A DNA stretch of 64,000 nucleotides from Oscillospiraceae bacterium. GTDB taxonomy: Bacteria > Bacillota > Clostridia > Oscillospirales > Acutalibacteraceae. Location of the stretch: the NCBI GenBank assembly GCA_015066445.1, contig SVOK01000002.1, forward strand, positions 62,001-126,000, written 5' to 3'. A program made the position numbers and the translations under genes. The notes below the pieces were generated by a model. It saw only the letters and a program-made list of their open reading frames with translations, did no database searches and was not told where the DNA came from. Positions 17,302 through 57,542 of this stretch are shown in pieces (within the stretch, counting starts at the first letter, position 1; each line of letters begins with the position of its first letter).

Positions 17302-20300
17302 TCAGAACATTGAAATCTGGTTAGTATCGGGCAAATCATTCATAGCGCCGAGGTCGGCAAGATTTTGAATAATTGTTTTGGAAACGCCTGCCTCTAACTG
17401 GAAATCCTCACGTGATACAAAGTTGCCTTTTTGAGCTGCTTCGTAAATAGAGTAAGCCGCTTTTTCACCAACACCACTTAGTGAGCCGAAGGGTAGACGC
17501 ATTTTGCCGTCCTCAGGCACATATTTCATAGCATGGGATTTGTTTAAATCAATGGGCAAAACACCTATGCCTCGTGACATCATTTCATTGAAGATAAGCA
17601 TATTTTCGTATACATCGAGCTCTTTTTTGCTGGCTTCTTTGCCCTTTGCTTTAATATCTCTGATATAGCGTTTTACAGCCTCGTGCCCCTGCATTAGGGT
17701 AGGAACATCAACGTCTTCAGGACGGGCAGTAAAGTAAGCACAGTAAAATTCGAGGGGTCTATGCACCTTATACCAAGCAACTCTTATAGCCGCAGTAACA
17801 TAAGCGGCGGCGTGGGCTTTCGGGAACATATACTTGATTTTATAGCAACTGTTAATATACCATTCGGGCACATTAACTGCTCGCATATCGTCCTCCATAG
17901 CGCCCCATTCTTCCTTAGAAACTTTGCCCTTTGCAACAAGACCTTTACGCACCGTTTCGGTAATCTTAAAGGCTCTGCCTTCCTCCATACCCTGATGGAT
18001 AAGGTAAACCATTATATTGTCACGCGTACCGATAACTTCAGAAATTGTACAAGTGCCGTTTTCAATAAGGTCTTTAGCATTGCCGAGGTAAACGTCGGTA
18101 CCGTGGGAAAGACCTGAAATTTGCAAAAGGTCGGAGAAATTCTTGGGTTTACAGTCAACCAACATTCCTCTGACAAAGGCAGTGCCGAATTCGGGTATGC
18201 AGTAAGTTCCGGTGGGGGAGTCAATCTCCTCAGGGGTAACGCCGAGAGCCTCGGTCGAGGTGAAAAGACTGTAAACATCGGGGTCGCTCATCGAAACCTC
18301 ACTTACAGGGATTCCGGAATACTCCTCTAAATATTTATAGGTAGTTGGAATAACGTGGCCTAATTCGTCAAGCTTTAATATGGTATCGTGAATGGAATGG
18401 AAGTCAAAGTGAGTTGTTACAACATCGGAGTTAACATCATCTGCAGGGTGCTGAACAGGGCAGAAATCGTAAATCTCCTTATCCCTTGGCACTACAATCA
18501 TACCTGCAGGGTGCTGACCGGTTGTGGTCTTGACCTGAGCCGATTCAACAAGCTTTGCCAAACGGTTAAGCTCGGCGTTGCTGAGGGTTACGCCTTTTTT
18601 CTCGGCATAAGCCTTTGCAAAACCGAAAGCGGTTTTTTCTGCAACAGTAGAAATTGTACCCGCTTTAAACACGTTTTCGCTACCGAACATAGTCTCAGTA
18701 TACTTTTGCACCTGAGTCTGGAATTCGTTGGAGAAGTTAAGGTCTATATCAGGTACCTTATCGCCTTTAAATCCTAAGAAGGTTTCAAAGGGGATATCGT
18801 GGCCGTCACGCTCCATCATTTCACCGCATTCGGGACAAGCCTTTTCGGGCAAGTCAAAGCCCGAGCCAACAGAACCGTCGGTGAAAAATTCGCTGTGACA
18901 GCATTTAGGACAAACATAGTGAGGAGCCAAGGGGTTAACCTCGGAAATTCCTGCCATAGTAGCAACAAAGGAAGAACCAACCGAACCACGTGAGCCTACA
19001 AGATAGCCGTTTGCTTCACTGTAAGCCACGAGCTTCTGCGCCGAAATATACATTATGGAGAAGCCGTTATTAATAATTGAATTAAGCTCCTTTTCGAGTC
19101 TTTTTTCAACTATTTCGGGCACATTTTCACCGTATTTTTTATGTGCGTTTTCCCAACAGATGCGTCTGAGTTCCTCGTCTGAGCCTTCAATTACAGGCGG
19201 ATAGTTACCGTCAGGCACAGGGATAACATCACCGTCCACCATTTCGGCGATTTTATTCGGGTTATCAATAACAAATTCTTTTGCTCTCTCACCAAAATAG
19301 CTGAAATCCTCAAGCATTTCGGTAGTTGATTTAAAGTAAAGAGGAGCCTGATTATCAAAGTCGTCAAAGCCCTGACCTGCCATAAGAATTTTACGGATAA
19401 TTTCGTCACTCTTTTTAAGGAAGTGAACGTCACCTGTAGCCACAACGGGCTTTCCTAATTTATCAGCCAATTCCACAATCTTGCGGTTAAAGTTCTTTAA
19501 GACTTCATCGCTTGTAACCTTGCGGTATCGGTTTGGTATAACAGCTCCCGTTTTCTTATCCTTTTTATCGGGGAGCATAGAGTCACGCACCATAAATGCG
19601 TTATTGCCGAGAGGCTGAATTTCAAGATAATCGTAGTAATCGGCAATTCTGAGTAACTCTTCCTCGGGCTTTTCGTCCACAATAGCCTCAAAAAGCTCAC
19701 CAGCTTCACAGGCAGAGCCAACAATTAAGCCCTCACGGTATTGGTCAAGCTTACTTCTGAGGGTTGCGGGTCTGCCCTTATAATCGTCAATATGAGCGAA
19801 AGAAATAAGCTTGTAAAGATTTTTGAGTCCCACAAGGTTTTTAACAAGTATAATCTGATGGTGGCTGAGCTTTCCGATTTGCTTTGCATTTAAAGAGGAA
19901 ATATCGTTATTGACATCATCAACAAAATAGGCTTCGACACCGTAAATAACTTTAAAGTCTCCGCCTGATTTTCTGATACCTTTTACTGCTGCGGCAGCTG
20001 CAGGGTAGGCTTGTACAACGCCGTGGTCGGTAATAGCAACCGCCTTGTGTCCCCATTTAAATGCCTGATTTATAATATCCCCTGCCGAGGTTACAGCGTC
20101 CTTAGCCGACATATTGGTATGGCAATGAAGCTCTACTCGCTTTTCACCCTCATAATCGTCAGTTTCAGTATATTTTTGTAGCAAAGCCATACTTTTTGGT
20201 TTTACAATAAAGTCTTTTTTATAGTTGTCAAATTCATAAATACCGTTGACAAGTATAAAATTACCTTTTTTAACTGGGGCTACTTCGCCCATACGCTTGG

Positions 20301-21126
20301 GGTCAACAAACATTGAAGCGGTGAGAGAGTTTGTGTAATCGCTGAAAGAAAAGGTTAAAATATTGCTTTCGCCACGTTTGGTGTTAATAGTGCGGACTTC
20401 GGTTTCAAAAACCTCACCCCAACAGCAAATTTCGCTGTCGTCACCTGTTACCTCTATCATAGGCTTTGTATTGCTTTCAATTCTTCTGCCATAGAAAATT
20501 TTGGGGTCATCGAGGTAAACTATGCCGTTCTGAGGCTTTTCCTCACGCTTTTCAAACTTGATTTCGGTTTTGGGGGCTTCAGCTTTCTTTTGCTGAGGCT
20601 TTGCTTCTTTTGGCGCAGGCGGTTCGGGTGGTGGCAATTCTATTGCAACATCGTCAAGCTGACCGTCAAATAAAACCTTAATATCAAGCCCGAATTTGCT
20701 CTTTACTGCCGCTTTGAATAAATTTTCGGCGTTTAATTCGCAAATTGTTTTGTAACCGCCGTGCTTTAGGGTGATTTTTACCTCTGATTCTGCAAGAGTA
20801 TAATCTGCCTCGGCAAAGTAACCGTTAAGGGCAGCGTTTTTAAGCTTGATTTCAGCCGCAACATCTGCACAAGCAGCTTTACAAAATGCGGTGGGGTCAA
20901 ATTTATATGTAATGGAACAGCTTTCAGCCTTTAAAACAGCCTTTAAGGTTGAGCTGGCAGTTAGCATTATATCTCTGTTTATATATTCTTTTGAGTTAAG
21001 TTCTAATTCTAAGGCTCTCGTATTAATATCTAAGCTGCAATGCTCAATAACGCTGTTTTTGAACGCTGAATTCAATTCTTCGTTTAAATATGAGCCGAAT
21101 ATTTCGTTAAACGACGGTTTCGCCAT
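17302..21126 (-). CDS. polC: DNA polymerase III alpha subunit, PolC-type, lacking the exonuclease insert
   Basis: Replicative polymerase. Order: N-terminal domain and Pro/Lys-rich linker (1-200), OB domain (about 222-310), PHP domain (about 330-570), then the polymerase with a CPKCC...CPEC zinc motif (739-767) and catalytic PDIDLNF (792-798). It has 1274 residues against about 1437 in Bacillus subtilis. The shortfall falls where the DnaQ-type proofreading exonuclease is normally inserted: the chain goes directly from GVEAYFVDD (396-404) to LSHHQIILVKN (420-430) and no FDxETTG motif exists anywhere. The PHP metal ligands appear complete: His334, His336, Asp343, His368, Glu398, His422 or 423, Cys473, Asp566, His568. 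It is the last gene of the pyrH operon, 19 bases after ispG. Confidence 0.95.
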   Translation of the reverse strand: MAKPSFNEIFGSYLNEELNSAFKNSVIEHCSLDINTRALELELNSKEYINRDIMLTASSTLKAVLKAESCSITYKFDPTAFCKAACADVAAEIKLKNAALNGYFAEADYTLAESEVKITLKHGGYKTICELNAENLFKAAVKSKFGLDIKVLFDGQLDDVAIELPPPEPPAPKEAKPQQKKAEAPKTEIKFEKREEKPQNGIVYLDDPKIFYGRRIESNTKPMIEVTGDDSEICCWGEVFETEVRTINTKRGESNILTFSFSDYTNSLTASMFVDPKRMGEVAPVKKGNFILVNGIYEFDNYKKDFIVKPKSMALLQKYTETDDYEGEKRVELHCHTNMSAKDAVTSAGDIINQAFKWGHKAVAITDHGVVQAYPAAAAAVKGIRKSGGDFKVIYGVEAYFVDDVNNDISSLNAKQIGKLSHHQIILVKNLVGLKNLYKLISFAHIDDYKGRPATLRSKLDQYREGLIVGSACEAGELFEAIVDEKPEEELLRIADYYDYLEIQPLGNNAFMVRDSMLPDKKDKKTGAVIPNRYRKVTSDEVLKNFNRKIVELADKLGKPVVATGDVHFLKKSDEIIRKILMAGQGFDDFDNQAPLYFKSTTEMLEDFSYFGERAKEFVIDNPNKIAEMVDGDVIPVPDGNYPPVIEGSDEELRRICWENAHKKYGENVPEIVEKRLEKELNSIINNGFSIMYISAQKLVAYSEANGYLVGSRGSVGSSFVATMAGISEVNPLAPHYVCPKCCHSEFFTDGSVGSGFDLPEKACPECGEMMERDGHDIPFETFLGFKGDKVPDIDLNFSNEFQTQVQKYTETMFGSENVFKAGTISTVAEKTAFGFAKAYAEKKGVTLSNAELNRLAKLVESAQVKTTTGQHPAGMIVVPRDKEIYDFCPVQHPADDVNSDVVTTHFDFHSIHDTILKLDELGHVIPTTYKYLEEYSGIPVSEVSMSDPDVYSLFTSTEALGVTPEEIDSPTGTYCIPEFGTAFVRGMLVDCKPKNFSDLLQISGLSHGTDVYLGNAKDLIENGTCTISEVIGTRDNIMVYLIHQGMEEGRAFKITETVRKGLVAKGKVSKEEWGAMEDDMRAVNVPEWYINSCYKIKYMFPKAHAAAYVTAAIRVAWYKVHRPLEFYCAYFTARPEDVDVPTLMQGHEAVKRYIRDIKAKGKEASKKELDVYENMLIFNEMMSRGIGVLPIDLNKSHAMKYVPEDGKMRLPFGSLSGVGEKAAYSIYEAAQKGNFVSREDFQLEAGVSKTIIQNLADLGAMNDLPDTNQISMF

Positions 21127-21145: not shown

Positions 21146-22198
21146 TTACATTTTTTCTATTTCTTCAAGTAATGCGGAAAGTAGCTGTTCTTCGGGCAAT
21201 TTACGGATTATCTCACCCTTTTTAAAGAGCACTCCGCACTGTTTTCCGCCTGCTATACCTATATCTGCGGCGGAAGCCTCGCCCGGACCGTTCACAACAC
21301 AGCCCATAATAGCTACGGTTATATCCTTATTAACATTTTTAAGTCTTTCTTCCGCTTTTTTTGCAATTCCTATTAAATCAATTTCAGTTCTGCCGCAGGT
21401 GGGGCAGGAGACGAATTTAATTCCGCCCTGTCTCAGGTCGATAGCACGCAAAAGCTTTATGCCGGCTTCAACTTCTTTTACAGGGTCATCTGTAAGAGAA
21501 ATTCTAATGGTATTGCCTATTCCTCTTAAAAGCAGACCGCCAATGCCTGCCGCAGATTTTATAACCCCCATATTTTCTGTTCCTGCTTCGGTAACACCCA
21601 AATGAAGCGGATAATGGCACTGCTCTGCCGCCAGTTCATAAGCCTTATACATTGTGTGTGTGTTAGAGGATTTGAGCGAGAGCACAATGTCGGTAAAATC
21701 GAATTTTTCGAGCAATGATATGTGGTAAAGTCCGCTTTCTACCATAGCTTCAGGCGTGGCAGAGCCGTATTTAGCCAATATATTTTTTTCGAGCGAGCCT
21801 GAATTAACACCAATTCTTATAGGCACATTATTTTTTCTGCAGGCATCAGCCACTAACTTTACCTTATCGTCCGAGCCGATGTTGCCCGGATTTATACGTA
21901 CCTTGTCAACTCCTGCTGCAATACTGTCAAGCGCTAAACGGTAATCAAAATGAATATCTGCCACAAGCGGAATGGAGATGCTTTTCTTTAACGCTTCAAC
22001 CGTTTTAAGCGCTTCCTTATCAGGAACGGTTACTCGCACAATGTCACAGCCTGCCGCCTGTAAGCGACGAGCCTGCTCAACATTGGCTTCAATATTATGA
22101 ACAGGGCAACACAGCATTGACTGAACCGAAATATCTGCTCCGCCGCCTATTGCTATATTACCAACCTGTACTTTTACGGTTTTATCGTTAGTGTACAT
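21146..22198 (-). CDS. ispG: 4-hydroxy-3-methylbut-2-en-1-yl diphosphate synthase (GcpE)
   Basis: Penultimate enzyme of the MEP isoprenoid pathway, an iron-sulfur protein that reduces methylerythritol cyclodiphosphate. The 350 residues show the family's opening VQSMLCCPVHN, a TIM-barrel with GVNSGSLEKN, and the cluster-binding cysteines in SCPTCGRTEID and MGCVVNGPGEA. In this operon it sits between rseP and polC, a common clostridial order, whereas Bacillus has proS there. Together with dxr in the same operon it shows that this organism makes isoprenoids by the MEP route. Confidence 0.96.
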   Translation of the reverse strand: MYTNDKTVKVQVGNIAIGGGADISVQSMLCCPVHNIEANVEQARRLQAAGCDIVRVTVPDKEALKTVEALKKSISIPLVADIHFDYRLALDSIAAGVDKVRINPGNIGSDDKVKLVADACRKNNVPIRIGVNSGSLEKNILAKYGSATPEAMVESGLYHISLLEKFDFTDIVLSLKSSNTHTMYKAYELAAEQCHYPLHLGVTEAGTENMGVIKSAAGIGGLLLRGIGNTIRISLTDDPVKEVEAGIKLLRAIDLRQGGIKFVSCPTCGRTEIDLIGIAKKAEERLKNVNKDITVAIMGCVVNGPGEASAADIGIAGGKQCGVLFKKGEIIRKLPEEQLLSALLEEIEKM

Positions 22199-22218
22199 AT
22201 TAACCTCCCATAGGGTAT

Positions 22219-22286
22219 GGGCAGGTATCTGTGCCTGCCCGAAAATCTGTGTTTTGCGGGAGGGCGTGGAAACCCTCCCCTACAAG
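22219..22286. repeat. Two tandem palindromes, copy 2 of the CCCCTACA family
   Basis: The first hairpin is GGGCAGG (22219-22225) with CCTGCCC (22234-22240); the second is GGGAGGG (22258-22264) with CCCTCCC (22273-22279), ending in CTACAAGG. They fill the 111-base spacer between ispG and rseP. Confidence 0.6.
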
Positions 22287-22309
22287 GTTATAATTCTTTA
22301 ATAAATATT

Positions 22310-23371
22310 TTAAAAAATCAAGGTCCAAATATCTTTGGCGGCTATAAGCACCATAAAGGCTATTAAAACTATGAAGCCTACTGTGTGGATAACCGATTCG
22401 TATTTTTGAGGAACAGGGCGTCTTATAATCATTTCAATTAAAATGAATAAAAGGCGACCGCCGTCAAGAGCGGGAATGGGGAAAAGGTTGAAAAGACCTA
22501 AATTGATGCTGATAAGCGCCATTATGGGCAATACTGCGCTAAGACTTTGTTTTGCCACATTTCCGATAGCCGCCGTAACACCTACAGGACCTGATATTGC
22601 GCTTATTCCGTACTTGCCTGCAAGCATATCAAGCAAGCTTCGCCAGATAACAGCGCAATAAGAAATCGCTGTATTAAAGGTCTGTTTTATATAGGACCAA
22701 ACAGTTTTCTTTATTCCGTAAACCTTGAAATCAAGAAGCAAATAGCTTATGCCGTTTTCTTCTGCTGTTTCAAAGGTTACATCCTTTAAAAGCTTTTCCT
22801 TGCCGTCACGCAAAACAGTTATGTCTATCTTGCCGTCATCAACATTAGTAAAAGCATAGCTTAAATCATAAAAGCTGTAGATTTTTCTGCCGTCGACCTC
22901 TAAAATTTCATCGTCTATCATAAGCCCTGTTTTCTGACTCATTGCGTTTTCATCAAACTGAGCTACAACAGTGGAAGTGAAAGCTTTGGACGGTGCTAAG
23001 ATTATTGCAACTATAATAAAACCAAGCAACAGATTAAATATTGCGCCCATAGCAACAATGATAAATCTGCGCCAAGGCTTTTTGTTGCAAAAAGCCTTAC
23101 TGTCCGTGCTGGTTTCGTCCTCACCCTCCATAGCGCAGTAGCCACCAAAGGGGATAAGGTTTACAGAATATTTAGTTTCCTTGCCCTGCTTTGAAAAAAG
23201 CTTGGGGCCAAAGCCCACCGCAAACTCGTTAACACACACACCTAAAAGCTTTGCGGCTATAAAATGACCGAATTCGTGGATTACAATCAGCACCACAAAA
23301 AGCAGAATTGCAATAAGATAAGGCCATACATTGTTCCAGATATTAAGAACGGCAGAAATATTAATCACCAC
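22310..23371 (-). CDS. rseP: RIP site-2 metalloprotease RseP/RasP
   Basis: Intramembrane zinc protease that cuts anti-sigma factors and signal-peptide remnants. The HEFGH zinc motif lies in the first membrane helix (VIHEFGHFIAAKLLGV, about residues 30-45), the PDZ domain is central (about 125-205), and the second ligand is in the C-terminal FPIPALDGGRLLF motif. The length of 353 residues is normal. The start is uncertain: the frame opens with GTG GTG at 23371 without a clear ribosome site, and no ATG precedes the first helix. It lies between dxr and ispG, as in other Clostridia. Confidence 0.93.
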   Translation of the reverse strand: MVINISAVLNIWNNVWPYLIAILLFVVLIVIHEFGHFIAAKLLGVCVNEFAVGFGPKLFSKQGKETKYSVNLIPFGGYCAMEGEDETSTDSKAFCNKKPWRRFIIVAMGAIFNLLLGFIIVAIILAPSKAFTSTVVAQFDENAMSQKTGLMIDDEILEVDGRKIYSFYDLSYAFTNVDDGKIDITVLRDGKEKLLKDVTFETAEENGISYLLLDFKVYGIKKTVWSYIKQTFNTAISYCAVIWRSLLDMLAGKYGISAISGPVGVTAAIGNVAKQSLSAVLPIMALISINLGLFNLFPIPALDGGRLLFILIEMIIRRPVPQKYESVIHTVGFIVLIAFMVLIAAKDIWTLIF

Positions 23372-23399
23372 TTTAGTAAATTTAAAAATATTGGCTTTC

Positions 23400-23426
23400 G
23401 GTCGGGCGCAGAGACCTGCCCCTGCG
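23400..23426. repeat. Degenerate palindrome, copy 3 of the CCCCTACA family
   Basis: GGTCGGGC at 23400-23407 faces GACC (23413-23416) and GCCCC (23418-23422), ending in TGCG. It is less perfect than the other copies and lies between rseP and dxr. Confidence 0.4.
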
Positions 23427-23433
23427 ATACGGT

Positions 23434-24570
23434 TTAAATATAAGTTCTTACAAGCTCTCGAGCCTGTTTATCGGTCTCGAGAATATCGTCTAAATTAAAT
23501 TCTTTTTTATTATTAACATTTTGAAGCGCTTTTTCCACAAGCTCTGCAATTTCTAAGAATTTGATTTTTCCTTCAAGGAAAAGTCTTACTGCCTCTTCAT
23601 TAGCGCCGTTTACCGCTGTGGGGGCAAGCCCACCCTCGTTTATAGCTTTAATGCAAAGCGGCAAGCAACGGAAGGTCTCATAATCAGGCTTTTGGAAAGT
23701 AAGAGTGCTGATTTTAAACAAATCAAGCTTTTCAAATGCGTAATTACTTCTTTCGGGGTAGGTGAGGGCATACTGAATTGGAAGCTTCATATCAGGTGTT
23801 CCAAGCTGGGCTATAACCGCACCGTCGGACAGCTCAACTCCTGAATGAACAATACTTTGTCTATGCACCAAAACCTCAATATTATCGGCAGAAATGCCAA
23901 ACAAATGCACCGCCTCGATAACCTCAAGTCCTTTGTTCATAAGGGTTGCAGAGTCAATTGTGATTTTAGCGCCCATCGACCAGTTAGGGTGGTTGAGCGC
24001 TTCTTTAACGGTAACGTTTTCTAAATCCTTTTTTCGCTTTCCAAAGAAAGGTCCGCCCGAGGCTGTGAGCAGAATTTTCCTGAGTGAGCCATTGGGTGCT
24101 CCTTGAAGTGACTGAAAAATTGCCGAATGCTCGCTATCAACTGGAAGAATTTTAACACCCTTTTCACGGGCTAATTTATTTACTATTTCACCGCCTGTAA
24201 CAAGGGTTTCCTTATTGGCAAGGGCGATGGTTTTTTTAGCTTCAATAGCTTTTAGCGTTGGGCGAAGACCTGCAATGCCTACAATGGAGTTAAGAACAAT
24301 ATCGCCGTCAAATTGAGCAGCTTCGCAAACACCGTCTACGCCGCAAAGCACCTTAATATCGGTATCGGCTAACTTGATTTTTAATTCTTTTGCTTTTTCT
24401 TCATTGAAAACTGCAACCAAAGAGGGTTTAAACTCTCTCGCCTGTTCCTCTAAAAGCTTTATGTTACTGCCTGCCGCTAAAGCGGTGACTTTATATCCGT
24501 CTCTGCGGCAAACGTCAAGCGCCTGCGTGCCTATAGAGCCTGTTGAGCCTAAAATTATTAAACTTTTCAT
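23434..24570 (-). CDS. dxr: 1-deoxy-D-xylulose-5-phosphate reductoisomerase
   Basis: First committed enzyme of the MEP pathway, using NADPH. From the chosen start the protein begins MKSLIILGSTGSIGTQAL, with the GSTGSIG dinucleotide-binding loop at residues 8-14; the metal-binding DSEHSAIFQ (about 145-153), the SGGPFFG loop and MNKGLEVIEAVHLF are present. The start is the ATG at 24570, not 24594, because AGGAG lies between the two and the ATG overlaps the cdsA stop as TAATG. It has 378 residues. Translation is probably coupled to cdsA. Confidence 0.95.
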   Translation of the reverse strand: MKSLIILGSTGSIGTQALDVCRRDGYKVTALAAGSNIKLLEEQAREFKPSLVAVFNEEKAKELKIKLADTDIKVLCGVDGVCEAAQFDGDIVLNSIVGIAGLRPTLKAIEAKKTIALANKETLVTGGEIVNKLAREKGVKILPVDSEHSAIFQSLQGAPNGSLRKILLTASGGPFFGKRKKDLENVTVKEALNHPNWSMGAKITIDSATLMNKGLEVIEAVHLFGISADNIEVLVHRQSIVHSGVELSDGAVIAQLGTPDMKLPIQYALTYPERSNYAFEKLDLFKISTLTFQKPDYETFRCLPLCIKAINEGGLAPTAVNGANEEAVRLFLEGKIKFLEIAELVEKALQNVNNKKEFNLDDILETDKQARELVRTYI

Positions 24571-25379
24571 TAAATTACTCCTAATGTGATGCACAAATAA
24601 AGAAGTGGAGCTATCATAATTATACTGTCAACACGGTCTAAAATACCACCGTGACCAGGTATCAGATTGCCGTAATCCTTAAGGTTTACACTTCTTTTAA
24701 TAGCAGATGCGAACAAATCGCCAACCATACCTAAAATACAGAATGGTATAGTTAAAACTATCGGTAAAACAAGCGCTTTTTTGAAGCAAAGGCTTAAAAT
24801 TACAGTAACAATTATACTTGAAACCACACCGCCGATAGCTCCCTCAACCGTTTTTTTAGGGCTGATATTAGGGCAAAGCTTATGTTTTCCGCAGGTAACG
24901 CCTGTGAAGTAAGCTCCCATATCGCAAACCGAAGAGAAATTAAGCAGTAACAGTAAATAATATATTCCGCTATCGCTATTTATTACACCTGAAAGGCAGA
25001 AAAACATACCGCCGTATACAAGGGGGAAGCCGTAAAGAGAGGCAATTTGACCCAAACCGAATTCGCTATGATTTTTAAGCACTAAAACAGCGGCTAAGGA
25101 GCTGTAAATTATAGCCCCGAACAAAACGAATATCAATGAAACACCGATATCTTCATTGATAAAACGGGTAAAAGGTACATAAAAGCTGAATGCACAGGCT
25201 AAAATTAATGATAATTTGCATTTAATTCCTGCCGCATTGTGAAGCAGTTCATAAACTGCGCCTGCTGCCAAAAGGGCTACTGCAATTGTAATCACAATAG
25301 GCTCCCATAAAAAGCCTAAAGCTAATACACCCGCTACAATAACACCCATTACAATTCCTGAAATTATACGAGTTTTCAT
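24570..25379 (-). CDS. cdsA: Phosphatidate cytidylyltransferase
   Basis: Makes CDP-diacylglycerol, the precursor of membrane phospholipids. The protein has 269 residues with about eight membrane helices and the C-terminal CTP-transferase signature KDYGNLIPGHGGILDRVDS. It lies between uppS and dxr in the conserved order, and its stop overlaps the dxr start. Confidence 0.95.
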   Translation of the reverse strand: MKTRIISGIVMGVIVAGVLALGFLWEPIVITIAVALLAAGAVYELLHNAAGIKCKLSLILACAFSFYVPFTRFINEDIGVSLIFVLFGAIIYSSLAAVLVLKNHSEFGLGQIASLYGFPLVYGGMFFCLSGVINSDSGIYYLLLLLNFSSVCDMGAYFTGVTCGKHKLCPNISPKKTVEGAIGGVVSSIIVTVILSLCFKKALVLPIVLTIPFCILGMVGDLFASAIKRSVNLKDYGNLIPGHGGILDRVDSIIMIAPLLYLCITLGVI

Positions 25380-25478
25380 TTTTTAATCCGCCTTTACTCT
25401 TGATATTTTCTAAGCCTTTACCCCGACAGCAAAACCCAGCGAATTTGCCACGGGATAAAGCAATTTAATTGGCTATAT

Positions 25479-26192
25479 TCATACTCCGCCAAATCTGCGG
25501 TGGCGGTGGTTATATTCTTCAATGGCTTTTTCTAAATGCTTTGGGGTGAAATCCGGCCACAGAACATCCGAAAACCAATATTCAGCGTAAGCCGACTGCC
25601 AGATAAGATAATTAGAAAGTCTATATTCTCCGCTCGGTCTGATAATAAAATCAGGGTCGGGCATACCAGAAGTATAAAGGTTATCCGAAATAGTCTGCTC
25701 GGTAATACTGTCAGGCGATATACCGCTTGCAACTATTTTTTTAACGGCATTTGTTATTTCGTCTCTGCCGCCGTAATTGATAGCAATATTAAGCTTTAAG
25801 CCTGTAGCATTCTTAGAGCCGTCCTCATCCTTTTTGATGAGTTCTTTGATATCATCTGCCAAGGGCTCTAAATTGCCAATAAATTTAACCTTTATATTAT
25901 CGCTTTTAAAGTTTTCTGCGTCCTTCAAATAATCCCGAAGCAGATTCATAATGCTGTCAACCTCGTCCTTAGGACGTTTCCAGTTTTCGGTTGAAAAAGC
26001 ATAAACGGTTAAATATTCAAGTCCTATTTTGTTGCAGTAACGAGCTATATCCTTAAAGGTTTTAGCTCCTGCAACGTGACCTGCACTTCGCGGCATTGAG
26101 CGTTTTTTTGCCCATCTGCCGTTACCGTCCATAATAATAGCAATATGACGGGGGAGTTTCCGTTCTTCGGTTTTTTTCTTGAAAAGGGACAT
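25479..26192 (-). CDS. uppS: Isoprenyl transferase (undecaprenyl diphosphate synthase)
   Basis: Builds the C55 lipid carrier for peptidoglycan from farnesyl diphosphate. The catalytic Asp sits in IAIIMDGNGRWAKKR (residues 18-32), with the later signatures TVYAFSTENWKRP (about 62-74), INYGGRDEI (about 138-146) and IRPSGEYRLSNYLIWQSAY (about 184-202). The length of 237 residues is typical for cis-prenyltransferases. It is followed by a 99-base gap to cdsA with no recognisable feature. Confidence 0.96.
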   Translation of the reverse strand: MSLFKKKTEERKLPRHIAIIMDGNGRWAKKRSMPRSAGHVAGAKTFKDIARYCNKIGLEYLTVYAFSTENWKRPKDEVDSIMNLLRDYLKDAENFKSDNIKVKFIGNLEPLADDIKELIKKDEDGSKNATGLKLNIAINYGGRDEITNAVKKIVASGISPDSITEQTISDNLYTSGMPDPDFIIRPSGEYRLSNYLIWQSAYAEYWFSDVLWPDFTPKHLEKAIEEYNHRHRRFGGV

Positions 26193-26225
26193 AAAAGCAC
26201 CGCCTTATTTGTTTTGCCCTAATGG

Positions 26226-26255
26226 TAAATAAAGGGCTGTAAATAAACAGCCCTT
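26226..26255 (-). terminator. Hairpin between frr and uppS (possible attenuator)
   Basis: AAGGGCTGT (26232-26240) pairs perfectly with ACAGCCCTT (26247-26255). The minus-strand tail TTTATTTACC is only moderately T-rich, so partial termination within the operon is more likely than full termination. Confidence 0.5.
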
Positions 26256-26264
26256 AGAGTTTTA

Positions 26265-26819
26265 TTAGATTTCTAGGATTTCCTTTTCTTTCAATGCTGC
26301 AAGCTCATCAATTTCTTTGCAGAATTTATCGGTCAAGGTTTGAATTTTCTTTTCGCCGTTGGTAACATCGTCCTCGGTGATGGTGTTAGCCTTTTTGAGA
26401 CCCTTTAATTTTTCAAGAGCATCACGGCGGGTGTTACGGATAGCAACCTTGTTTTCCTCAGCCATTTTCTTAACGTCTTTAACAATTTCTTTTCTGCGTT
26501 CTTCGGTAAGAGGGGGGAATGCAAGGCGGATAACACGACCGTCATTCTGGGGGTTAATACCAATGTCAGAAGTAAGGATTGCTTTTTCAATAGTTTTTAA
26601 TGTAGTAGCGTCCCAAGGGCTTATCATAAGAACACGGGGCTCGGGAACGGAAACTGCTGCCATCTGCTGAATAGGAGTGGGAGCTCCGTAATAATCAACG
26701 GTTATACGGTCAAGCACAGAAGCATTTGCTCTGCCCGCTCTTACAGCCTTATAGTCACGCTCTAAAACAGCGACGGTTTTATTCATCTTTTCTTCGGTAT
26801 TTTTAATTAATTCTTGCAT
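26265..26819 (-). CDS. frr: Ribosome recycling factor
   Basis: With EF-G it splits post-termination ribosomes. The 184 residues show the family's opening helix (EKMNKTVAVLERDYKAVRAGRANASVL in part), the PTPIQQMAAVSVPEPR beta domain (around 50-66) and the long C-terminal helices with RRKEIVKDVKKMAEE. It lies 21 bases after pyrH and has a GGAGAG ribosome site. Confidence 0.97.
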   Translation of the reverse strand: MQELIKNTEEKMNKTVAVLERDYKAVRAGRANASVLDRITVDYYGAPTPIQQMAAVSVPEPRVLMISPWDATTLKTIEKAILTSDIGINPQNDGRVIRLAFPPLTEERRKEIVKDVKKMAEENKVAIRNTRRDALEKLKGLKKANTITEDDVTNGEKKIQTLTDKFCKEIDELAALKEKEILEI

Positions 26820-26840
26820 AACATTCTCTCCTTAAAATGA

Positions 26841-27545
26841 TTATTTAACAGTTGTACCGATAGTCTCGCCCACCATAGCGGAAACGATATTATCAGGATT
26901 ACTCAGATTAAATACTAAAATTTCAATGCCGTTATCCATACAAAGTGAAGCAGCAGTACTGTCCATAACGTGAAGTCCCTGCTGGAGTACTTCAATATGA
27001 GTGAGGGTATCGTACTTTTTAGCATCGGGGTTGAGCTTAGGATCGCTGTCATAAACACCATCAACATTAGTAGCCTTGAATATTACATCTGCACCGATTT
27101 CGGCGGCACGCAAAGCTGCAGCAGTATCGGTAGAAAAGAAAGGGTTACCTGTTCCGCAACCGAAAATTACAACTCTGCCTTTTTCGAGATGTCTCACAGC
27201 CTTGTTGCGGATATAAGGCTCTGCTATCTGACGCATTTCAATAGCAGTCTGCACTCTGGCGGTTACGCCTAACTGCTCTAAAGCATCGGCTAAAGCGAGT
27301 GAATTAATAGAAGTAGCCAACATTCCCATATGGTCGGCTCTTGTTCTGTCCATTTTGCCGCTTGAGCGACCTCTCCAGAAATTGCCGCCGCCTACAACTA
27401 TTGCAACCTGAACGCCCATTTCCACACAAGTTTTAACACGTTCGCAAACTTCCAAAACCTTATCAAAATCAATACCTGAGCCTTTTTCACCTGCGAGAAC
27501 TTCGCCGCTGAGCTTTAAAAGGACACGCTTATAAATAGGTTTCAT
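26841..27545 (-). CDS. pyrH: UMP kinase
   Basis: Phosphorylates UMP to UDP; amino-acid kinase fold. From the selected start it reads [19 protein letters not shown], with GGGNFWRG near residue 54, [10 protein letters not shown]-type UMP site residues and the [20 protein letters not shown] signature. The longer frame to 27602 is rejected because GGGGTG is correctly placed for the ATG at 27545 and the extension overlaps the promoter. It is the first gene of the operon that runs through to polC. Confidence 0.96.
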
Positions 27546-27583
27546 ATTTACACCCCTGTATCTTTTAAATCTTATTCTAATAT

Positions 27584-27612
27584 ATTTTAACTTAATATCC
27601 ATTTAAAGTCAA
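27584..27612 (-). promoter_or_regulatory. Promoter of the pyrH-frr-uppS-cdsA-dxr-rseP-ispG-polC operon
   Basis: Minus-strand TTGACT (27612-27607), 17-base spacer, TAAAAT (27589-27584), about 40 bases before the pyrH start. Confidence 0.75.
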
Positions 27613-54185: not shown

Positions 54186-55014
54186 TATTTTCAAACCTTT
54201 TAGTCATTATGTTTGCATCTTCCTGAGGGTCACGGTAAAAGTTTTTACGCACGCCCTCTTTTTTAAAGCCCATTTTTTCATAGAGTGAAATAGCCGCAAA
54301 ATTTGATTCTCTTACTTCGAGCGAAACAAAGCTGAGATTTAATTCGCCTGCTAACTCAAAAATTCTGTTGAGAAGTGCTGTTGCAACTCCTTTTTTGCGG
54401 TGCTCGGGATAAACCGCAATGTTTGTGATATAACCTTCATCAAGAATACAGCTTATGCCGACATATCCCAAAAGCCTGCTATCTTTTTCTGCAACAAAAA
54501 ACTTAGTGCCCTTTGTAAAAGAGTCAAGGATAGTAGTCTCACTCCAGGGTTCTGAAAAGCAGATTTTTTCTAAAAGAGCAATTTTTTTAATATGCTCTCT
54601 TTCCATAGTAAGTATTTCAAATGGCAGAAAAAGCTCGTCAATAGCCTTGGTTATTTCATCACGGCAGGCCCTGTAAACTTCTAATCCGCAGATAAACGGG
54701 TCGGAAATACCCTCACCTAAAACTGAAAGCTTTTCTTTTGCATAGGGCTCTAAATATGCTTTATGGGAATGGGACATACAAATTATTTTATCCGCCCATT
54801 CTAAATCTTCTGCGGTTATATTTTTAGAAATATGGCCGCTAATATCAATGCCTATTTCTTTGAGTGCTTTTACTGAGTTTTCACTGACAGGTGAGCCATC
54901 CGCTGCAAGTCCACAGCTTTTGACCGAAACATCTTTTAACCCGAGAGATTTTAAATATCCCTCTGCCATAGGACTGCGGCAGGTGTTACCTGTGCAAACA
55001 AATAATATATTCAT
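54166..55014 (-). CDS. Fusion of low-molecular-weight protein phosphatase and RimI acetyltransferase
   Basis: Residues 1-128 form a low-molecular-weight phosphotyrosine/arginine phosphatase: P-loop CTGNTCRS (Cys7, Arg13, Ser14) and the general acid Asp105 in SDPFICG. Residues 130-275 form RimI, the acetyltransferase of ribosomal protein S18: ALLEKICFSEPWSETTIL, the acetyl-CoA loop VYPEHRKKGVATALL (201-215) and VRESNFAAISLYEKMGF, FYRDP. Both active sites look intact and no stop or frame change separates them. rimI commonly stands with tsaB, tsaD and tsaE; here the phosphatase is fused in front. It follows polA as TAATG and overlaps tsaD. Confidence 0.92.
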   Translation of the reverse strand: MNILFVCTGNTCRSPMAEGYLKSLGLKDVSVKSCGLAADGSPVSENSVKALKEIGIDISGHISKNITAEDLEWADKIICMSHSHKAYLEPYAKEKLSVLGEGISDPFICGLEVYRACRDEITKAIDELFLPFEILTMEREHIKKIALLEKICFSEPWSETTILDSFTKGTKFFVAEKDSRLLGYVGISCILDEGYITNIAVYPEHRKKGVATALLNRIFELAGELNLSFVSLEVRESNFAAISLYEKMGFKKEGVRKNFYRDPQEDANIMTKRFENNEDISN

Positions 55015-57542
55015 TATCCCTTAGCCTCTAACCAATTTTTACCGTATGCTGCATCGGCTGTGAGTCTTACTGCAAGCGAAGCGGATTTTTCCATTTCCTC
55101 GGCTAACAGACTGCAAACCTTTTCGGCATCGTTTTTATCACACTCAACTATAAGCTCATCGTGCACCTGCAAAATAAGCTTAGCTGTGGGGATTTCCTTT
55201 TCAAGGCGGCCGAACACATTTATCATCGCAAGCTTGATAATATCTGCAGCTGTGCCCTGAATGGGAGCATTTCTTGCAACCCTTTCGCCAAATGCTCTGA
55301 GCATACCGTTAGAGTTATTAAGCTCGGGCAAATATCTTCTTCTGCCGAAAAGGGTTGTCACAAAGCCGTCAAGCTTGGCTTGTTTTATGGTATTTTCCAT
55401 ATAATCTGCTACACCTGAATAGGAGGCAAGATAGTTTTTAATATAGCTGTCAGCCTCGGCTCTTGTTACGCCGATATCCTTTGAAAGCGAGAATGCACCA
55501 ATGCCATAAACTATACCGAAGTTTACCGCTTTAGCACGGCTTCTCATAATGGGGGTTACCATATCTTCGGGCATATTGAAAACCTGCGCCGCAGTAGCAG
55601 TGTGAATATCTGCGCCTGATAAAAAGGCGTTTATCATATTTTGGTCGTTTGCAATGTGCGCCAAAACACGAAGTTCTATCTGAGAATAGTCGGCGTCGCA
55701 AAGAACTCGGTTTTCTGGTGCAATAAAATATTCACGAAGACGCTTACCCTCGCTTGTTCTTACGGGGATATTCTGCAAATTAGGCTCCAATGAGCTTATT
55801 CTGCCTGTTCTCGCTTCGGTCTGGTTAAATGTGGTATGAATTCTGCCGTCCTCTGCTATGCAGCCCTGCAAACCGTCCGCATAAGTGGATTTGAGCTTAG
55901 CTAATTGACGGTATTCCAAGAGTAAAGCTACAGCAGGGTGGCGGTCCTTAAGCTCTTCTAAAACTTCGGCATTAGTGCTGTATCCGCTCTTGGTTTTTTT
56001 CTTGGCGGGAAGCTCTAACTTTTCAAAAAGGGCAACGCCTAACTGCTTTGGAGAATTGAGATTAAACTCATAGCCTACAAGGGAGTAGATTTCTTTTTCT
56101 ATAACCGAAATGCGCTCGCCCAATTCGTCTGATAATTTTTCAAGACCTTCTTTATCAACCAAAAAGCCGCAAAGCTCCATATTGCCTAACACCTTAGCAA
56201 GGGGAAGCTCAATTTCCTCTAAAAGCTTTAGCTGATTTGTGGCTTCGAGCTCTTTTTTCAGATTATCGCAAGCAATTTTGAAACCGCAGGCGTTTTTTAT
56301 AAATTCGTCTGCCTCGCCGAGTATTTCGGGTGTGGCACCATATTCTAAAATAAGCCTTTCTGCTGCATAAGACGAGGAAGCGGGGTTACAAAGATACGCC
56401 GCAAGCATAGCATCAAAGCTTATGCTGGAAATGTTATTATTCTGCTTGTAAAGATTTTTATAGTCAAACACCCGTTTTTTAATATTCGGGTTTTCCATAA
56501 CAGCTTTAAGTGTTTGGTAGTCAGAACGGCAGACACCGTCTTCCCAGACAAGGGCTATGTTTTCGTCTTCACAGTAAACGGTGATTTCGGTAATAGAGTC
56601 GGGGAAAGTTTCCTTTACCTCGGTTTTCTTTGCCTCTTCCATATCAAAGCCTATCTGCATCTGAGCATTCACAGGCTCCAAGTCCATTTTTTCCATAAGC
56701 TTGAAAAATTCGAGCTTGGTCATTAAAGCGGCAAGCTCTGTTTTTTGAGGAGCTTTTGTTTTATAGTCCGCAATATTCTCATTTATGGGAGCGGCTTTGC
56801 ATATAGTACCGAGCTCACGGCTAAGAAATGCGCTATCCTTTCCTGCCTCTAATTTTTTGCGTACGCCGTCTTTAATTTCAAGACTTTCGAGATTTTCATA
56901 AATATAATCAATAGTGTGATATCTTGTGATAAGGTCGGTGGCGGTTTTTTCGCCCACGCCTGCAACGCCGGGTATGTTATCGGAAGAATCTCCCATCAAG
57001 GCTTTTAGCTCTATCATTTCGGGAGGAGTGAGTCCGTATTTCAGGAAAAGCGCCACTTTATCGTAATTAATAATTTCAGGGTGTCCCATTTTGGTTGCCG
57101 CAAGCAAAACTCTTGTTTTATCCGACACTAACTGCAGGGAATCACGGTCGCCAGTTGAGATAACACATTCATTACCGCTCTGCTCCGAAAGGTGGGCTAA
57201 TGTGCCTAAAATATCATCTGCCTCAAAGCCCTCACATTCAATACAGGTATATCCTGCGAGCTTTAACCATTCTTTTAAAACAGGCATTTGCTCTGCCAAT
57301 TCCGGCGGCATACCTTTTCTGCCTGCTTTATATTCTGAATACTGCTTATGACGGAAGGTTGGAGCCTTTAAATCAAAAGCCACTGCTACACCGTCAGGCT
57401 TTTCCATTTCGCAAAGCTTATTTAAAATATTGATAAAACCGTATATTCCGTTTGTATATTGACCGTCCTTAGTGGATAGTAATTTAATACCGTAAAAAGC
57501 ACGGTTTATAATACTGTTACCGTCAATCGCAAGCAGCTTCAA
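55014..57542 (-). CDS. polA: DNA polymerase I
   Basis: Repair and lagging-strand gap-filling polymerase. The 842 residues comprise a 5' nuclease (1-290; AIDGNSIINRAFYG, AFDLKAPTFRH, GDSSDNIPGVAGVGEKTA), a degenerate 3'-5' exonuclease-like domain (about 300-450) and the polymerase (TEARTGRISSLEPNLQNIPVR, DADYSQIELRVLAH, VHDELIVE). In the exonuclease region the usual DxE motif is missing, as in Bacillus PolA, so no proofreading is expected. The start is TTG at 57542 with AGAGGTG at good spacing. It is the first gene of the polA to PBP2 operon. Confidence 0.95.
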   Translation of the reverse strand: MKLLAIDGNSIINRAFYGIKLLSTKDGQYTNGIYGFINILNKLCEMEKPDGVAVAFDLKAPTFRHKQYSEYKAGRKGMPPELAEQMPVLKEWLKLAGYTCIECEGFEADDILGTLAHLSEQSGNECVISTGDRDSLQLVSDKTRVLLAATKMGHPEIINYDKVALFLKYGLTPPEMIELKALMGDSSDNIPGVAGVGEKTATDLITRYHTIDYIYENLESLEIKDGVRKKLEAGKDSAFLSRELGTICKAAPINENIADYKTKAPQKTELAALMTKLEFFKLMEKMDLEPVNAQMQIGFDMEEAKKTEVKETFPDSITEITVYCEDENIALVWEDGVCRSDYQTLKAVMENPNIKKRVFDYKNLYKQNNNISSISFDAMLAAYLCNPASSSYAAERLILEYGATPEILGEADEFIKNACGFKIACDNLKKELEATNQLKLLEEIELPLAKVLGNMELCGFLVDKEGLEKLSDELGERISVIEKEIYSLVGYEFNLNSPKQLGVALFEKLELPAKKKTKSGYSTNAEVLEELKDRHPAVALLLEYRQLAKLKSTYADGLQGCIAEDGRIHTTFNQTEARTGRISSLEPNLQNIPVRTSEGKRLREYFIAPENRVLCDADYSQIELRVLAHIANDQNMINAFLSGADIHTATAAQVFNMPEDMVTPIMRSRAKAVNFGIVYGIGAFSLSKDIGVTRAEADSYIKNYLASYSGVADYMENTIKQAKLDGFVTTLFGRRRYLPELNNSNGMLRAFGERVARNAPIQGTAADIIKLAMINVFGRLEKEIPTAKLILQVHDELIVECDKNDAEKVCSLLAEEMEKSASLAVRLTADAAYGKNWLEAKG

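Follow-up and report, generated by a model that had tools for sequence, protein, structure and literature searches.

The window analysed here, a stretch of 64,000 nucleotides of an Oscillospiraceae genome (contig SVOK01000002.1), encodes a PolC-type DNA polymerase III alpha subunit without the DnaQ-type exonuclease (Exo) domain. The protein is confirmed as a well-formed exo-less PolC, a variant that has already been described. The absence of Exo is genus-wide and recurrent, the PHP ligand sets are intact, no DnaQ recurs and MutS is present. What is added here is the comparative pattern: Exo is lost recurrently, PHP is not seen lost alongside, and DnaQ is often absent. Proofreading in this genus probably rests on the predicted PHP exonucleases of PolC and DnaE1.

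The gene has an ATG start and a clean open reading frame (ORF). The layout of the product is as follows.
17302..21126, minus strand: polC, exo-less PolC-type DNA polymerase III alpha, 1274 residues and stop
20452..21126, minus strand: N-terminal region, residues 1–225, no Pfam assignment
20146..20433, minus strand: OB-type region, residues ~232–327, from the 3F2B alignment; beta-rich in the model, whose residues 1–96 are matched by OB-fold proteins
19915..20139, minus strand: PHP part 1, residues 330–404, with ligands H334, H336, D343, H368 and E398 (Pfam and alignment)
19867..19914, minus strand: short loop, residues 405–420, at the position of Exo in other PolCs
19267..19866, minus strand: PHP part 2, residues 421–620, with ligands H423, C473, D566 and H568 (Pfam, alignment and model)
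17587..19209, minus strand: polymerase palm, thumb and fingers, residues ~640–1180, DxD at D793/D795
17329..17571, minus strand: HhH region, residues 1186–1266 (Pfam)
17305..17319, minus strand: C-terminal QISMF, read in the translation, which we take to be a clamp-type motif

The full-length protein passes the NCBIfam PolC models PRK00448 (1408 bits, cut-off 873) and TIGR01405 (1278 bits, cut-off 1043). The domains assigned by Pfam are PHP, polymerase, finger and HhH. From residue 226 to the end, the protein can be aligned with the crystal construct of Geobacillus PolC (3F2B). The predicted structure of residues 226–1274 was weak (predicted local distance difference test score 63), and a model of residues 226–640 was used instead. 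The window PolC has the PHP fold of replicative polymerases. According to Pfam, however, it contains no RNase_T/exonuclease domain, and the hallmark of canonical PolC, a DnaQ-type Exo inserted in PHP, is missing. The Exo site consists of 18 residues (404–421) in the alignment, compared with 191–219 in Exo-bearing PolCs. When the own genome (42 contigs, 87% complete) was searched in six frames with PF00929, no Exo was detected in another frame, and the sole match was a KapD-like protein on a different contig. These three results bear out the central claim of the original prediction, that this PolC lacks a DnaQ-type Exo.

Full-length PolC (match starting no later than residue 8 and reaching the end; hand count) was found in 28 of the 37 genomes of the own genus (G000–G036). 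The frames are 1272–1308 residues long and all are exo-less; in the remaining nine genomes the PolC match is partial or there is none. Across 54 distinct own-genus-like cores the Exo-site stretch is 13–18 residues. The named relatives are metagenome-assembled genomes of Clostridia, Oscillospiraceae or Ruminococcaceae, many of them from ruminant gut according to their titles. In the sister genera of the same family, 7/7 genomes have Exo, with PolCs of 1451–1493 residues, the FDxETTG motif and 207–208 residues at the site. Alignment against these Exo-bearing relatives, a check that had been proposed, confirmed the Exo gap and the ligand set. The sister genera are also a better yardstick than Bacillus PolC for the size deficit from which the loss of one Exo domain was first deduced. 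In the tree of 117 PolCs, the own-genus rows together with L068 and L071 form a single exo-less branch with support 100. An assembly error, a misframed exon or a deletion local to one genome might be suspected in a genome of 42 contigs that is 87% complete, and an Exo hidden in this way had been named as a possible refutation. The clean ORF, the six-frame search, the 28 own-genus frames and the fully supported branch leave such an artefact a negligible chance. An assembly gap, a hidden frame and a local deletion were rejected on the clean ORF and the exo-less relatives.

Two kinds of unusual frames were observed. Diverged second PolC-like frames with 32–47% identity lie beside a normal PolC in four genomes (G020:C139, G031:C2, G043:C2 and G300:C2). 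At the end of contig G011:C29, a 617-residue frame (L311) starts with terminase-like sequence and runs into an Exo and PHP piece of PolC at the contig end. Judged by eye, the start looks like a phage terminase, and the contig is probably chimeric. The PolC of G011 itself is exo-less.

According to Timinskas et al. (2013; PMC3919608), Exo is missing from 6% of PolCs, all in Clostridia and Negativicutes except for one Thermotogae copy; the authors termed this surprising. The variant is still counted as PolC. Like the window PolC, the exo-less PolCs of Clostridia and Negativicutes consist of the N-terminal region, OB, PHP, polymerase and HhH with Exo absent, keep the PHP metal site and occur alongside DnaE1. 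Both defining features, a PolC without Exo and a DnaE1 in the genome, are found here (DnaE1 and DnaE3 were not separated by a tree). Nothing essential differs from the present case, and the present genus is not named in the parts of the paper that were read. With the terms used, exo-less PolC was found as the topic of a title or abstract start in the open-access literature only in PMC3919608 and one further paper. The canonical PolCs of Geobacillus (3F2B) and Enterococcus faecium (9QPC) have the polymerase and the PHP fold in common with the window PolC. Native canonical PolCs carry Exo, whereas the window PolC does not, and both canonical chains have N at the position of D566. The 3F2B crystal construct is itself delta-Exo (PMC3656037, PMC12592400). 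Mycobacterium tuberculosis DnaE1 has the DnaE domain order, unlike the window PolC; its zinc and exonuclease activity were measured (PMC5636811), whereas those of the window PolC are predicted.

All nine PHP ligands (HHDHEH[C/H]DH) are present in the window PolC, as predicted. The sixth, formerly given as His422/423, is H423, since position 423 is conserved as His and position 422 varies in relatives. The D226N substitution in M. tuberculosis DnaE1 abolishes exonuclease activity (PMC5636811), and D226 appears to correspond to D566 according to the motif. Among distinct cores, in which identical cores are collapsed, the nine ligands are intact in 88/88 exo-less PolCs, 3/3 with a degenerate insert and 97/99 Exo-bearing PolCs; the two exceptions are one truncated row and L285. 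In the wider row set the corresponding values are 61/61, 3/3 and 81/85. An earlier row set, sorted by insert length, counts the degenerate inserts L280, L296 and L300 as Exo-bearing and could include both a named and an unnamed locus from the same genome. L103 is truncated. All four broken PHP sites belong to Exo-bearing PolCs. Three (L343, L350 and L352) have D-to-N at the D566 position. The fourth, L285 (G310, f57), has most PHP ligands replaced and an intact FDLETTG Exo motif, and is a real PHP-broken PolC. Within the sampled PolCs, a broken PHP was seen only beside an Exo domain.

The original prediction had offered three options: proofreading by PHP, a separate DnaQ, or a high mutation rate. 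The first is the best supported. In this genus of small-genome uncultured Clostridia, an ancestor would have lost Exo from the PHP loop, leaving the 13–18 residues; the direction of the change is inferred. The polymerase would function without Exo, as engineered delta-Exo PolC does. Mismatches at the 3' end would be excised by the PHP sites of PolC and of DnaE1, the latter just as intact, and MutS mismatch repair would be the backstop. Zinc binding and 3' excision by these sites are predictions from the ligand residues.

Several points weigh against proofreading by PHP. The conservation of the ligands is not ascribable to proofreading after Exo loss, because nearly all Exo-bearing PolCs have them just as intact, and it is no sign of PHP newly taking over here. 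An intact PHP is the ground state and not a response to Exo loss; the idea that it is peculiar to exo-less PolC was rejected, since Exo-bearing PolCs as a rule have one too. The difference in broken PHP sites, 4/85 in Exo-bearing against 0/64 in the other PolCs, is not significant (~0.10, one-sided, by hand, relatedness ignored). In a comparison of 15 Exo-bearing with 9 exo-less families, the ratio of PHP to polymerase rate shows PHP to be no slower in the latter (Mann–Whitney p 0.59), so that a stronger PHP constraint in exo-less families was also rejected. Some other exo-less lineages carry stand-alone DnaQ-like genes, and the assembly of the own genome reaches only 87% completeness.

Another explanation is that DnaE1 with its intact PHP is the bulk copier and proofreader, so that the role of PolC is limited and the loss of Exo was cheap. 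Timinskas et al. raised DnaE1 as bulk replicase as a question for bacteria with PolC and DnaE1 (PMC3919608). The DnaE1 PHP motif of the genus is complete in 19/20 loci, the last being cut at the first ligand, and the C-termini mostly carry QLxLF-type motifs. In f10, which belongs to the same order, 7/8 genomes have no PolC match. On the other hand, PolC is full-length with polymerase motifs in the 28 genus genomes, the rest being partial or unassembled, and it keeps all nine PHP ligands. We regard this explanation as unlikely. As to f10 itself, its eight genomes (G045, G070, G089, G105, G119, G132, G145 and G159) are 90–98% complete. The PolC frame of G132 has only 227 residues with 37% identity, and G045, the sole f10 genome read for it, has a DnaE whose PHP motif is complete.

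The genome search for a stand-alone DnaQ or epsilon, which had been proposed as a check, yielded in the own genome (87% complete) only the KapD-like 3'-5' exonuclease (G000:C13, ~300 residues), its only RNase_T protein. RNase_T matches are present in 56/61 genus genomes, mostly in frames of 285–343 residues. A DnaQ-type gene beyond the KapD-like protein is only sporadic in the genus, with one extra match in 3 of the 61 genomes (G011, G183 and G194), the one in G011 probably lying on a chimeric contig. The option of a separate DnaQ has thus found neither a gene in the own genome nor a recurrent one in the genus. Proofreading in trans by the KapD-like protein would be in line with its occurrence in most genus genomes. 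However, three KapD-like proteins from the genus and proteins from Exo-bearing sister genera form one clade in the tree, apart from DnaQ-like proteins and PolC Exo domains; the other genus proteins were assigned by frame length and profile match. As the clade also occurs in Exo-bearing relatives, a compensating gain was rejected. Furthermore, G023 (97% complete) and G192 (94%) have no match at E 0.001 (three candidates were scored in G023, zero in G192), and the PolC of G023 is full-length and exo-less. Proofreading by the KapD-like protein is therefore very improbable.

The remaining explanation is less accurate replication, with no functional proofreading and mismatch repair as the sole backstop. 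No DnaQ recurs, the PHP activity is a prediction, and the 3'-5' region of PolA is degenerate.
55014..57542, minus strand: polA, degenerate 3'-5' exonuclease region (profile search and reading by eye)
In this part of PolA, PF01612 matches only with E 0.019 and no DxE is seen by eye, in agreement with the original prediction. Such a site is yet ordinary for Firmicutes: substitutions in the Pol I 3'-5' site occur in about half of orthologues and are most common in Firmicutes, Tenericutes and Actinobacteria (PMC12926913). The PHP ligands are invariant across the clade, which is unexpected for a dead site, and MutS1 exceeds the cut-off in 39/41 genus genomes. The hypermutator option is weakened because MutS1 is kept, and we give it little credence.

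Exo-less PolC is common in the phylum. Of 119 genomes drawn from across it, 90 have a PolC proper, which comprises 55 frames of 1120–1292 residues, 30 of at least 1372 residues and 5 partial ones (hand count). The draw favours rare families, and the counts therefore stand for a fraction of the diversity rather than of the genomes known. Among the short frames, 36/55 are confirmed as exo-less, namely G000 and 35 without a PF00929 match inside PolC, 20 of which were also read; all 33 Exo-bearing controls (33/33) show such a match. The other 19 were classed by length alone, which can mislead: nine short or truncated frames (1006–1310 residues) in the order and class sets had RNase_T inside PolC (G162, G199, G207, G213, G268, G274, G291, G295 and G301). 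Of the 30 long frames 20 were read, and all 20 have Exo. On the core tree of 117 PolCs, built with the Exo columns excluded, the Exo label changes at least 11 times, 6 of them forced by starred branches. On the 149-row tree, which includes 40 rows from the wider phylum and also L285, absent from the smaller tree, it changes at least 16 times, 10 of them forced. Both trees are unrooted. The changes are read mainly as losses, because the insert is at a single site and 32/35 PolC Exo domains cluster together (support 81).

Stand-alone DnaQ-like genes accompany exo-less PolC in f2 (8/8), f19g19 (3/3), f37 (2/2), one f76 genome and one f32 genome. No RNase_T protein was found in f27 (3/3), f32 (4/5), f40 (3/3), f77 (1/1), the other f76 genome and f24 (1/1, 86% complete), nor in 9 of the 35 tested short-PolC genomes of the phylum draw. 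In f49 a weak RNase_T match was detected in two genomes and none in one. A further reading is that Exo and PHP of PolC are mutual backups, of which lineages lose either but not both. In Bacillota, Exo would have been lost on some ten or more occasions, in many cases from genomes where no DnaQ-type protein is found, and whole genera would depend on PHP proofreading only. We consider the chance of this general scheme to be about even, or slightly better. From the 6% of 2013 one would take Exo to be less dispensable for the PolCs of Bacillota than the present results suggest. The natural Exo deletions and the Exo-bearing sister genera make PHP proofreading by PolC testable without engineering. 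How PolC maintains fidelity also matters in practice, because a drug that targets PolC has reached late clinical development (PMC12592400).

Among the stand-alone genes (L221–L233), the small DnaQ-type genes of f2 fall in one clade and those of f19g19 in a second. Both are candidate epsilon-like PolC subunits. Domain fission in f19g19 was rejected; in a weakly supported tree, its stand-alone exonucleases do not group with the PolC Exo of their own family.

Two families have other inserts at the Exo site. In f67 (L296, L308 and L309; G252, G279 and G327), PolC has ~1650 residues with an insert of ~320 residues unseen by PF00929. Parts of the insert are Exo-like but lack the acidic DxE residues (hhalign 86% over 52 columns, flanking PHP included), and it is possibly a dead, remodelled Exo domain. 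In f64 (L280, L300 and L310; G312, G261 and G288), the insert has ~140 residues and does not belong to RNase_T. Over its C-terminal part, hhalign pairs it with the last helix of Exo (97.7%, flank included). A search of the three genomes gave no RNase_T protein, and the insert may be a decaying Exo.

Upstream of polC in the window lies a gene cluster.
21146..27602, minus strand: ispG/gcpE, M50 protease, dxr, cdsA-type, uppS, frr and pyrH-type genes
The order from ispG/gcpE to the pyrH-type gene beside polC is presumably the usual one for PolC in Firmicutes. This usual order is why the window polC is regarded as the chromosomal gene rather than as an accessory copy.
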